This document shows, piece by piece, positions 22,971 through 26,496 of a stretch of 32,614 nucleotides of DNA. Under the pieces are notes generated by a model. It was not told the origin of the DNA and ran no database searches. It saw only the letters and a list, made by a program, of their open reading frames with translations. Numbering within the stretch: position 1 is the stretch's first letter; each line of letters starts with the position of its first letter. Origin of the DNA: Deltaproteobacteria bacterium (GTDB taxonomy: Bacteria > Myxococcota_A > UBA9160 > UBA4427); the NCBI GenBank assembly GCA_019310975.1, contig JAFDDH010000068.1, positions 1-32,614 on the forward strand, in the 5' to 3' direction. Position numbers and translations under genes: made by a program.

Positions 22971-24029
22971 ATGGACGAGTCCGAGTTCTTCTTCCGTCTC
23001 TCCCCGGATCGCGTCCTGCAGGCCGTGGAAGCCGGGGGACTCTCGCCGAGCGGACACTGCTTCACCCTCAACGCCCTGGAGAACCGCGTCTACGACGTTC
23101 GCTTGGAGGACGGCCGGCACGTCGTGGCGAAGTTCTACCGGCCCGGCCGCTGGAGCCGCGAAGCGATCCTGGAGGAGCACGGCCTGCTCGCCCTGCTCGC
23201 CGAGATGGAGATCCCCGTGGCCGTGCCGCTGGCCTTCGAAGACGGCGAGACGCTGCATCGCGTCGAGGGCATCCACTATGCGGTCTGGCCGCGCACCGGT
23301 GGGCGCTCACCCGACGAGCTCGACGACGGGCAGGTCGCGGTGCTCGGCCGGCTGCTGGCCCGCATCCACAGCGCCGCCCAGGCCGCATCGATCGAACGGC
23401 GACCCGCCCTCGACTCGGAGCACTTCCCGCTCGCAGCCCTGACGTTGCTGGAGGAGCGCGGCTTCCTGCCGCCATCCTGCGCGAATCGCTACCGCGCTGC
23501 CGTCGAGGAGCTGGTTGCGATCTACGACGATTGGAGCCGCGATGTGGCCCTGCATCCGATCCACGGCGACTGCCATCGCGGCAACCTGCTGCTGGGCGAC
23601 GCGGGCTGGCTCTTCCTCGACTTCGACGACGTGGTGATCGGGCCCGCCGTGCAGGATGTGTGGATGCTCTTGCCGGGACGGGACGCCGAGGCGGCCCGGC
23701 AGCGCGCGCTGCTGGTGGAGGCCTACCGCGAGTTTCGCGACTTCGACGAGCGCTCGCTGCGCTTGATCGAGCCGCTGCGCGCCTTCCGCTTCGTGTGGTA
23801 TGCGGGCTGGATCGCGCGGCGCTGGGATGACCCCGCCTTCCCCGACGCATTTCCGCACTTTGGTGGCGACGAATACTGGGAGAACGAGACGCGCGACCTC
23901 GAGCAGCAGGTCGAGTTGATCGTACGCGGCGAGGGCGCCTCGGTGCCGGCGCCGGACGCACAGGCCCGCAGCGAGGAGCGGGAGGCCCAGGGCGAGCTGA
24001 CGAACGAAGACTTCTTCTGGGATCTCTGA
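22971..24029 (+). CDS. srkA: SrkA/RdoA-family stress kinase
   Basis: A 352-residue kinase of the aminoglycoside-phosphotransferase fold, related to E. coli SrkA (YihE/RdoA). Visible motifs: ALENRVYDVRLEDGRHVVAKFYRPGRW (family nucleotide-binding Lys), IHGDCHRGNLL (catalytic loop, HGDxHxxN) and FLDFDDVVIGPAVQDVWML (DFD metal site plus DxWxL). RFVWYAGWIARRW is also typical. E. coli SrkA phosphorylates Ser/Thr and counters stress-induced toxin death. This protein is about 24 residues longer, with an acidic C-terminal tail. The start ATG 22971 lacks a Shine-Dalgarno sequence. The stop lies inside a 13-bp hairpin. Confidence 0.9.
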   Translation: MDESEFFFRLSPDRVLQAVEAGGLSPSGHCFTLNALENRVYDVRLEDGRHVVAKFYRPGRWSREAILEEHGLLALLAEMEIPVAVPLAFEDGETLHRVEGIHYAVWPRTGGRSPDELDDGQVAVLGRLLARIHSAAQAASIERRPALDSEHFPLAALTLLEERGFLPPSCANRYRAAVEELVAIYDDWSRDVALHPIHGDCHRGNLLLGDAGWLFLDFDDVVIGPAVQDVWMLLPGRDAEAARQRALLVEAYREFRDFDERSLRLIEPLRAFRFVWYAGWIARRWDDPAFPDAFPHFGGDEYWENETRDLEQQVELIVRGEGASVPAPDAQARSEEREAQGELTNEDFFWDL

Positions 24030-24047
24030 GCAGAGCTCAGAGATCCC
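24019..24047 (+). terminator. 13-bp hairpin containing the srkA stop codon
   Basis: GGGATCTCTGAGC (24019-24031) pairs perfectly with GCTCAGAGATCCC (24035-24047), with a 3-nt loop. The TGA stop (24027-24029) is inside the left arm, so a terminating ribosome would melt it. TT follows on the plus strand but no longer T-tract. Bidirectional terminator or RNA 3'-end structure is likely. Confidence 0.6.
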
Positions 24048-24050
24048 TTG

Positions 24051-24168
24051 GCGGAGGGCTCCCTTACGTAGCTGAGGGCTCCACGTAGCTGAGGGCTCCC
24101 CTACCTCGCTGAGGGCTCCCCTACCTCGCCGAGGGCTCCCCAATTCTGGCTGAGGCCTCCTGCTTCCG
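24051..24168. repeat. 20-bp imperfect tandem repeat between convergent genes
   Basis: Six units of GCTGAGGGCTCCCCTACCTC or close variants: 24051-24070, 24071-24087, 24088-24107, 24108-24127, 24128-24148 and 24149-24168. Units 3 and 4 are identical; the outer ones have drifted. The array starts right after the srkA hairpin and ends 2 nt before the next gene's stop. No spacers, so it is not CRISPR. Confidence 0.85.
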
Positions 24169-24170
24169 AC

Positions 24171-24452
24171 CTACGCCGCGGCCTCGTCGTCTCGGCGGTC
24201 GACCCGCTGGTCCAAGAGCTCGCTGGCGAGCTTCGTGACACTGTGATTCACGGCGCGGATCAGGTCGTAGATGGCGCCGATCGACGTGTCCTGGATCCGA
24301 CGCACTTCCGACACGGTCTGCTCGAAGAGGCCGAGCTGCTCGAGCACCGTGATCGGCAGGTTGGCCACTTGGCGGTGAATCTCCTCAACGGTCGTCGCGC
24401 CCTGGTCGACGGCCTCCTCGACCAGCTCGCTCAAGCCTCTCTGGTTGCTCAT
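24171..24452 (-). CDS. 93-residue helical protein, unknown function
   Basis: A 93-residue protein with GGAGGA 6 nt before ATG 24452. It reads as amphipathic helices with few aromatic residues: GLSELVEEAVDQGATTVEEIHRQVANLP, then VLEQLGLFEQTVSEVRRIQDTSIGAIYDLIRAVNHSVTKLASELL, and a charged tail. No cysteine, signal peptide or membrane segment is visible. A coiled-coil or granule- or protein-associated role is conceivable but unproven. It faces away from a ribbon-helix-helix gene, with a perfect palindrome 31 nt upstream of its start, so it is probably repressed or induced by a dedicated regulator. I recognise no family. Confidence 0.75.
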   Translation of the reverse strand: MSNQRGLSELVEEAVDQGATTVEEIHRQVANLPITVLEQLGLFEQTVSEVRRIQDTSIGAIYDLIRAVNHSVTKLASELLDQRVDRRDDEAAA

Positions 24453-24482
24453 GACGTCTCCTCCGCTTTGAGATGGTCTGCA

Positions 24483-24509
24483 TTGATGTAATACGTACTA
24501 TTACATCAA
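24483..24509. promoter_or_regulatory. Perfect 11-bp inverted repeat, likely operator
   Basis: TTGATGTAATA (24483-24493) and TATTACATCAA (24499-24509) are exact complements, 5 nt apart, in an AT-rich island of an otherwise GC-rich genome. A minus-strand promoter fits over it: TTGCGC (24516-24511) with 17 nt to TATTAC (24493-24488). The palindrome therefore covers the spacer and -10 of the 93-residue gene, a classic repressor position. The ribbon-helix-helix protein at 24649 is the natural candidate, though TetR-type regulators bind similar sites. Confidence 0.7.
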
Positions 24510-24551
24510 AGCGCAATGGGTGAGCCATTCCATTTCCCACATACTTGAGAA

Positions 24552-24563
24552 AAATAATTATTT
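24552..24563. promoter_or_regulatory. AT-only palindrome AAATAATTATTT
   Basis: A 12-bp perfect palindrome in the same AT-rich island (24480-24595), halfway between the operator and the ribbon-helix-helix gene. It may be a second binding site or an UP-type/curved element; no function can be assigned. Confidence 0.3.
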
Positions 24564-24635
24564 ACAGGAAGTTATGTGACTTTCTCGAACCAGGGCAGGG
24601 CTCCCGCCGGGCCTAGCGGCCTTTCTCGGGCGTAG

Positions 24636-24641
24636 TACAAT
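24636..24641 (+). promoter_or_regulatory. Candidate -10 element (leaderless) of the RHH gene
   Basis: TACAAT (five of six consensus) is followed by 7 nt and ATG 24649. An earlier in-frame ATG (24640) overlaps the hexamer. No Shine-Dalgarno sequence exists before either ATG. Confidence 0.4.
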
Positions 24642-24648
24642 GTCTCTC

Positions 24649-25173
24649 ATGGTCAAGCGCACTGACGCGACCGAGTCCGCGGTAGGCTGCTCGCGGGCTG
24701 CGCCGCGCAAGGATCGGCTCGTCCAGGCTCGCGTGCCCCGCGAGCTCGAGGCCAGCTTGAAAGAAGAGGCGCGCCGCCGCCGGCTCTCAGTCTCCCACCT
24801 GGTGCGCAACGTGCTGGAGGACGCCCTGAAGCTCGTCGACGGGGTGGTCCACGATGTCGATCGCATCGTGAGCGACTCGGTCCACCTGGCACGCAGCCTT
24901 GGACGCGGCGCCGAGCGCAGTCACGCCGGCCACGACCGCGAAGCATCAGTGGGTGGACGGACGCGTGAAGCGACGCGCGAGGACATGCGGGGAGAGACCG
25001 CTGATGATCTGTCGCACGTCTACGCCTGGAACGAGGTCGTGCTCCACCGACCCGCCGCGTGCTCGTCCTGCGGCCGGGCGCTCGAACGCGGACAGCGCGG
25101 CTACGCGGGGCTCAGTGACGAGCCGGGTGCAGCGCGGGCATGGCTCTGCGAGGGCTGTGTCGCCCGGCTCTGA
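24649..25173 (+). CDS. Ribbon-helix-helix protein with C-terminal zinc-ribbon-like motif
   Basis: A 174-residue protein (177 if ATG 24640 is used). Residues about 20-60 are a ribbon-helix-helix DNA-binding domain: RLVQARVPRELEASLKEEARRRRLSVSHLVRNVLEDAL, with the short beta strand followed by two helices. Residues 60-135 are a charged linker. The C-terminal 45 residues carry two CxxC pairs (CSSCGRALERGQRG ... WLCEGC), a probable zinc ribbon. RHH proteins bind as dimers to palindromic operators, and an 11-bp inverted repeat lies 140 nt upstream, nearest the 93-residue gene. The fusion could add metal or redox sensing; that is inference. I chose ATG 24649 because a TACAAT box ends 7 nt before it. 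Confidence 0.78.
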   Translation: MVKRTDATESAVGCSRAAPRKDRLVQARVPRELEASLKEEARRRRLSVSHLVRNVLEDALKLVDGVVHDVDRIVSDSVHLARSLGRGAERSHAGHDREASVGGRTREATREDMRGETADDLSHVYAWNEVVLHRPAACSSCGRALERGQRGYAGLSDEPGAARAWLCEGCVARL

Positions 25174-25281: not shown

Positions 25282-26496
25282 TCACGGCTGGTTGCTCCGC
25301 TCGGCTTGGGTCCGCGCGAGGAAATAGTCCAGAGTCGGTCGCAGTCGCGCGTGTCTGCGCGCGGCCTCGATCGCTGAATCCAGCGCCGGCAGCTTCTCGG
25401 ATGACCGATCGCCGGGCGGCCAGAGCAAGGCGGTGCGGATCAAGTCGGCGGCGCCGTCCGATGGCGTGCGCTCGATGGCGGCGTACTCCGCGCCGACGAT
25501 CACCGCCAGCTCCAGCGGATGCTCGGCGAAGAGCGCCCGCGCCGGCTGGCTTTCGCCGACGGAGTCCGCGAGTGGAAGCGGACGTCCCTCGAACGCACCC
25601 GGCAGTGCGACACCGGCCGAATCGAGCAGCGTCGGCGCCACGTCGAGCGTGCTCACCGGCGTCGTGATGCGGCGGCCCACCATCGGTCCGGTGCCGGTCC
25701 TCGGCGGCCGCCAGAGCAGCGGCACACGGATCTCCGCCAGGTCGACGCCGCGCCCGTGGCTGGCCGGCGAGCCGGGCTCGGCGTCTCGCTGGCCATGCAG
25801 TCCGACGAGCAGAACGCCGGGCGGCGTGGGGCGCGCGTCGAGCACGGCGATCAGCTGCGAGAGGCGACGATCCAGGTGGCGGATCGATTTCTCGTAGTCG
25901 GCGGGGGTCCAGGGCGCCGAGCCCTTCCCGGGTGGATGCGGCTCGGAGAAGTGTACCCAGACCAGCCATGGTGACCGGGCGGCATCTGTCCACGCGATGG
26001 CGCGATCTCCGACGCTCTCGAGGCGGTCGGACTGGACGCTGGAGAGGCCGTCGTCGTAGACACCGAAGCCCTGCTGCAGATTGCGCGACCGGTTCAGCTC
26101 AGGGCTCGCCACGAAGGCCGCCGTCTCGTAGCCGGCCGAGACGAGCGCCTCGGCAGCCGTTGCGACCCGCTGCGGCAGAAATTGGGCCGCCGAGTCACGG
26201 ACGCCGTGCTGCGATGGATGCAGGGAGGTCAGGAGCGAGGCGGCCGCCGGTCCACCCGACGAGGCGGCCGCGAAGGCCCACACGTAGCGGGCGCCTTCAT
26301 CCCCGAGGGCGCATGCCTCGACTCCGAGATCCCGGCGCCCACCATAACAATCGAGCGCATCGGCGCGTAGCGCGTCGATGCTGATCAGCACGAGGTCCGG
26401 CCGGATCGACGCCTGGCGGCTACAGCCCCCGACAAGCACGACCAGGCCGATCACGAGAGGGATCGGGTGGGGGTGGGTCCGCCAGCTGGGTCGCAT
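25282..26496 (-). CDS. Sulfatase-like lipoprotein, catalytic residues missing
   Basis: A 404-residue protein of the alkaline-phosphatase/sulfatase superfamily. The N-terminus is a lipoprotein signal (LVIGLVVLVGGCSRQ, lipobox LVGGC), so it should be membrane-anchored in the periplasm or outer membrane. The first metal motif is near normal (LVLISIDALRADALDCYG). The formylglycine motif C/S-x-P-x-R-x-S-LLTG reads GGPAAASLLTS, without Cys/Ser or Arg. The second metal motif (family SDHGE) reads VGLHGQR, without Asp. STLDVAPTLLD is typical of the family. It probably cannot cleave sulfate esters by the usual route. Convergent with the RHH gene, divergent from nadA. Confidence 0.8.
   Translation of the reverse strand: MRPSWRTHPHPIPLVIGLVVLVGGCSRQASIRPDLVLISIDALRADALDCYGGRRDLGVEACALGDEGARYVWAFAAASSGGPAAASLLTSLHPSQHGVRDSAAQFLPQRVATAAEALVSAGYETAAFVASPELNRSRNLQQGFGVYDDGLSSVQSDRLESVGDRAIAWTDAARSPWLVWVHFSEPHPPGKGSAPWTPADYEKSIRHLDRRLSQLIAVLDARPTPPGVLLVGLHGQRDAEPGSPASHGRGVDLAEIRVPLLWRPPRTGTGPMVGRRITTPVSTLDVAPTLLDSAGVALPGAFEGRPLPLADSVGESQPARALFAEHPLELAVIVGAEYAAIERTPSDGAADLIRTALLWPPGDRSSEKLPALDSAIEAARRHARLRPTLDYFLARTQAERSNQP

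Follow-up and report, generated by a model that had tools for sequence, protein, structure and literature searches.

In the current work, two divergently oriented genes from a Deltaproteobacteria bacterium were analyzed, one specifying a 93-residue helical protein (hereafter the small gene; 24171-24452, minus strand) and the other a putative ribbon-helix-helix (RHH) repressor (24640-25173 by ORF analysis, plus strand), and comparison with related genomes indicates that they constitute a real and conserved, self-contained regulatory unit. Sequence comparison gives good support to the regulatory half of this unit, and its lipid half is plausible. In the explanation to which we assign an about even probability, the RHH protein would be a dedicated autorepressor controlling a small protein which acts at neutral-lipid droplets (phasin-like) or as a lipase partner, repression being relieved by storage lipid. 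The window, i.e. the whole stretch of DNA that was analyzed (32,614 nt, contig C182), is part of a host genome of 5.35 Mb in 477 contigs.

Clear homologues of the small protein are present in 18 of 98 related genomes, and in 12 of these 18 the small gene adjoins an RHH gene, this being the outcome of the co-occurrence check put forward in the initial annotation. Two arrangements are encountered, being either divergent (G000, which is the host genome, G002, G018, G037, G039 and G069) or tandem, with the small gene preceding an RHH gene which it almost abuts (G033, G038, G050, G054, G058 and G085). The other six genomes (G034, G043, G045, G049, G063 and G079) carry the small gene without an adjoining RHH gene, the RHH homologue of G063 being located on a different contig. 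RHH homologues were retrieved from 57 of the 98 genomes and are widespread without the small gene.

The high GC3 of the small gene (0.90) and the RHH gene (0.81) represents a high-GC coding signature, and both genes therefore look native, the contrast in composition being confined to the AT-rich intergenic island (24476-24590). Consequently, the sharp base-composition contrast described in the initial annotation stands for the island and not for the two genes. Nowhere in the window is the GC content lower than in this island (34%, in 80-bp windows around 24486-24496), and at this minimum lies the perfect inverted repeat that had been noted between the divergent genes, which is exact and consists of 11-bp arms and a 5-bp spacer (24483-24509). 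It is the sole AT-rich 11-bp inverted repeat of the window, the other four being GC-rich or mixed hairpins. This exact repeat occurs only once in the genome, namely in the window itself, and the proposed regulon of further exact palindrome sites was thus not recovered.

Alignment of upstream regions, performed by eye and by pattern, argues that the binding unit is not this palindrome, as had been supposed, but two tandem boxes 10 bp apart, the mirror arms being coincidental here. The predicted boxes follow a 9-bp consensus (YGTRNYACR), which is repeated with a 1-bp spacer to give a 10-bp period, corresponding to about one helical turn. Predicted Operator 1 (24487-24505, minus strand), located inside the inverted repeat, contains two such boxes (TGTAATAGT-A-CGTATTACA), and predicted Operator 2 (24631-24639, plus strand) consists of the box CGTAGTACA. 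Other examples of tandem boxes are TGTAATATT-C-TGTATTACA, TGTAATACG-A-TGTATGACA and CGTATTACG-T-TGTATTACG, the same arrangement is found ahead of RHH homologues of approximately 30% identity (TGTATCACA-T-TGTGATACA), and almost every RHH homologue compared has similar boxes ahead of it. With respect to the small gene, boxes are located upstream of all 12 paired copies and of the G063 copy; six of seven unpaired small loci are devoid of a box, with L070 presenting a single isolated match. At most loci tandem-box matches exceed those in shuffles and in same-locus control segments, the per-locus shuffle figures being partly circular with a consensus derived from the tested loci; stronger tests are the contrast between paired and unpaired genes and the fixed distance between box and start codon.

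The predicted sigma-70 promoter of the small gene (24488-24516, minus strand) comprises TTGCGC (24516-24511) and TATTAC (24493-24488), separated by 17 bp. Both boxes of Operator 1 overlie this promoter, covering the spacer and the -10, the latter falling in the second box, and the previously claimed overlap between repeat and small-gene promoter is thereby upheld at the level of prediction. A TTG-type -35 is present 15-17 bp from the box-associated -10 in 8 of 13 small-gene promoters, compared to a background of about 5%. On the other side of the island, 18 loci (from the divergent, solo and distant groups) have a box which ends 8-10 nt ahead of the RHH initiation codon. With this spacing, a TACAAT-like -10 comes to lie about 7 nt upstream of that codon, which is the arrangement of leaderless genes. 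In the window, TACAAT (24636-24641), overlapping CGTAGTACA, fits the -10 of a leaderless RHH transcript. A repressor bound at this box would thus mask the -10 of its own gene, and the box spacing is probably that of a leaderless promoter under self-repression. ATG 24649, separated from the end of the operator box by 9 nt, as in homologues, is on this ground more likely to be the RHH start than the codon at 24640, giving a protein of 174 aa (24649-25173) as opposed to 177 aa. In the mechanism proposed, RHH dimers would bind the tandem boxes, one helical turn apart, and, as boxes are present on both promoters (over the -10 and spacer at the small gene, and over the leaderless-promoter -10 at the RHH gene), the RHH protein would shut off the small gene as well as itself, an anatomy which is conserved.

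A genome scan allowing up to 3 mismatches retrieved 18 sites, as compared to 48 for a reversed control pattern; two of the 18 are in the window and one is ahead of an RHH paralogue on C148, while the strict double-box pattern was not found in the genome. Since this whole-genome scan revealed no excess of sites, and no wider regulon, the regulator is to be considered local. Together with the adjacency in 12 of 18 genomes and boxes that track this adjacency, the missing wider site set strongly supports the self-contained regulatory unit envisaged in the initial annotation. In the distant RHH sub-family of approximately 30% identity (L081-L092), the RHH gene of L083 is divergent from an HspQ/YccV-like gene, and the same is observed for L081 by translation of its upstream region.

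The small protein is encoded by a verified ORF, present as one copy only in the host genome, and its description as belonging to no known family remains valid, with no covering family in Pfam or NCBIfam. The AF2 model is confident (mean pLDDT 90) and predicts helices at residues 2-16, 22-30, 32-40 and 44-92, the last of these spanning about 49 residues and the other three being short. The family is characterized by the motif GATxVEEIHxxIAxLPLxVLE...IQDxSIGAVYDxIRxVN and by invariant residues G18, E23, H26, P33, Y62 and R66. A fold search against solved structures returned nothing similar, and a search against PDB sequences nothing meaningful, the phmmer matches being designed toroid proteins. 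Further homologues occur in Desulfobacterota, Binatia, Leptospiraceae and Gammaproteobacteria, the closest named contig carrying the gene being from a Myxococcota-like 'delta proteobacterium' MAG; a plasmid search with the Agitococcus homologue yielded none.

Neighbouring genes and fusions point to a role in lipid metabolism. The small gene is followed by a lipase/palmitoyl-thioesterase-like hydrolase gene in apparent operons (L053, L054 and L061), and at two loci without the small gene (L074 and L076) a hydrolase gene of this family is transcribed divergently from an RHH gene. A PGAP1-like lipase gene is located immediately upstream in L097, L100, L103 and L105, such lipase-small gene pairs occurring in Gamma- and Deltaproteobacteria, and the small domain is fused N-terminally to a PGAP1-like hydrolase in L066 and L125. 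A desaturase gene is found upstream at eight loci (L110, L113, L114, L118, L121, L122, L124 and L126; called by Pfam on three, the others being sequence relatives), often accompanied by ferredoxin reductase and TetR genes. Two WS/DGAT genes are situated near the small gene in both L069 and L070, and a WS/DGAT gene together with a PhaR-like gene in L120. All 18 small-bearing genomes contain at least three WS/DGAT genes (13 in the host genome), but their excess of WS/DGAT genes is not significant after size matching (p=0.08), and, alpha/beta hydrolases and WS/DGAT being abundant in these taxa, nearness alone is a weak indication. The window itself has no lipase or WS/DGAT gene next to the pair, and the host genome yielded no homologue of the L053 lipase. 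Relatives of the host encode up to 18 WS/DGAT proteins, denoting a heavy wax-ester/triacylglycerol (TAG) capacity in this uncultured order. Sulfatase-family genes also recur near the small gene (25282-26496 in the window, and L054, L061, L068, L110 and L114), which may be due to chance.

Based on these neighbours and fusions, the small protein would be a helical, amphipathic component of neutral-lipid metabolism, most likely residing on wax-ester/TAG droplets or recruiting lipases to them. A narrower version retains the repressor as proposed and has the small protein accompany, activate or inhibit alpha/beta hydrolases of the PGAP1-like kind, as a detachable lipase domain and not a droplet coat. 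The N-terminal fusions, the lipase-small gene pairs and the hydrolase operons agree with this version, which we nonetheless consider rather unlikely, as many copies of the small gene have no hydrolase neighbour and the desaturase and WS/DGAT contexts suit a wider lipid role. The window protein resembles the N-terminal part of the PGAP1/DUF676-like hydrolases L066 and L125, yet it is an isolated domain without the catalytic part. Phasin models gave no Pfam match to the small-protein family and marginal NCBIfam matches only (E 0.006-0.1), namely PhaM-like (E 0.1, two members) and Leptospira phasin-related (E 0.006, one member). A reading as a polyhydroxyalkanoate (PHA) phasin is weakened by the absence of PhaC, the PHA synthase domain PhaC_N being undetected in G000 and in 96 of the 98 genomes.

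The favored reading, an RHH autorepressor controlling a droplet or lipase-partner protein, has counterparts in logic among storage-granule systems. In Rhodococcus jostii RHA1 the droplet protein MLDS and its regulator MLDSR are specified by one locus, where MLDSR occupies a pair of sites (operator and promoter), represses both genes and is sequestered by lipid droplets; MLDS itself binds DNA (PMC5504291). The present locus similarly combines a candidate droplet protein with a regulator and has predicted boxes at both promoters, and the K/R/A/P-rich basic tails of some small-protein homologues (L060, L063, L067 and L069) recall DNA-tethering granule proteins, including the DNA-binding MLDS. However, MLDSR is an XRE-type helix-turn-helix protein recognizing the box GNT(T/A)GCTNNTGCTANC (PMC5504291), whereas the regulator analyzed here has a predicted RHH fold, a putative zinc domain and YGTRNYACR boxes and is without homology to MLDSR; the former system is actinobacterial and the latter Myxococcota-like. 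In the PhaP-PhaR system, expression of a small granule protein (phasin) is blocked by a repressor until granules form (PMC3079617), which is comparable to a repressor controlling the gene of a small candidate storage-granule protein. In contrast, PhaR contains PHB_acc_N (PF07879), neither window protein reaches the phasin or PhaR cut-offs, and the PhaC_N synthase was not detected in the host genome. Since the regulators are of different fold, the unit would by analogy work like MLDS-MLDSR and PhaP-PhaR without being a member of either, its parts being unrelated. The assertion that the locus matches no known system thus holds at the sequence level, and literature searches combining RHH with phasin or with zinc ribbon, or covering the box sequence, returned no description of it, but its logic matches that of these storage-granule pairs. 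By extension from them, relief of repression may come from stored lipid, from a lipid metabolite or from the surface of the droplets, which is the weakest step of the mechanism, as the zinc domain could respond to a different signal.

Known bacterial wax-ester/TAG droplet proteins are few and mostly actinobacterial. The small domain, found alone, fused to lipases, behind desaturases and near WS/DGAT genes, opens droplet biology in several phyla to testing, with a regulator family whose defined predicted operator can be read across genomes. A bolder and still less probable proposal, which we advance tentatively, is that the small proteins form an undescribed droplet-surface family across Myxococcota-like bacteria, Binatia, Desulfobacterota, Leptospiraceae and Gammaproteobacteria, and that in one lineage a lipid-sensing RHH/zinc repressor leaves its operator once droplets form, as a third independent instance of the PhaP-PhaR logic.

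The assignment of the regulator as an RHH protein with a CxxC...CxxC motif, as originally annotated, was retained: its Pfam RHH_1 match (E=0.002, 18.4 bits) is below the cut-off of 20.5, but 31 aligned homologues share the RKDRLxQTRVP strand region and two helices, and W130, C141, C144 and C170 of the C-terminal domain are invariant among those aligned. The monomer model contains helices at residues 34-46 and 51-102, the second being a long linker helix, and sequence and model concur in an N-terminal strand-helix-helix domain as expected of the RHH (MetJ/Arc) superfamily; a PHROGs search returned generic RHH-type matches only. RHH repressors of the MetJ, Arc, CopG and ParD/RelB types bind as dimers to short boxes that recur at intervals of about one helical turn, and are autoregulated. 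The predicted tandem boxes, spacing and autoregulation reported here resemble this scheme, although the box sequence differs, a long linker helix and a putative C-terminal zinc domain are present, and sequence similarity, sub-threshold, is restricted to the RHH fold. Foldseek matched the C-terminal domain to PARP-type zinc fingers (probability up to 1.00 but E about 0.09), which we treat as a lead only.

It would be improbable, in our estimation, that the pair is a metal or redox switch, with a zinc- or oxidant-sensing zinc domain in the regulator and a stress function for the small protein: the CxxC...CxxC domain with its zinc-finger-like predicted fold and a distant RHH paralogue beside an HspQ/YccV-like gene are in keeping with it, but no metal or redox genes were recognized beside the pair in the window, and alanine replaces the fourth cysteine of the motif in seven homologues, which are mainly tandem-type, so that the zinc site is not uniformly kept. 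No evidence was found for the metal or oxidant role suggested earlier. The CxxC to CxxA change was observed at the C-terminus of L056, L057, L062, L065, L068, L071 and L077, mostly of the tandem-locus sub-family, where zinc binding may be reshaped or lost. A type II toxin-antitoxin pair, with the small protein as toxin and the RHH protein as autoregulating antitoxin, is rejected as very improbable, for although the genes are small, adjacent and probably autoregulated, include an RHH-type regulator with a predicted operator over the promoter, and nearly abut in tandem loci, pairing is not obligate (the small gene is free of an adjoining RHH gene in 6 of 18 genomes, its domain is also enzyme-fused, and RHH homologues are widespread without it) and no toxin family in Pfam or NCBIfam matches the small protein.

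On the other flank of the small gene, between it and an srkA-like gene, an approximately 20-bp tandem repeat (GAGGGCTCCCCTACCTAGCT) is present in five copies (24054-24160). A perfect hairpin (GGGATCTCTGA...TCAGAGATCCC; 24019-24047) extends across the stop codon of the SrkA-like kinase gene and is possibly a terminator.
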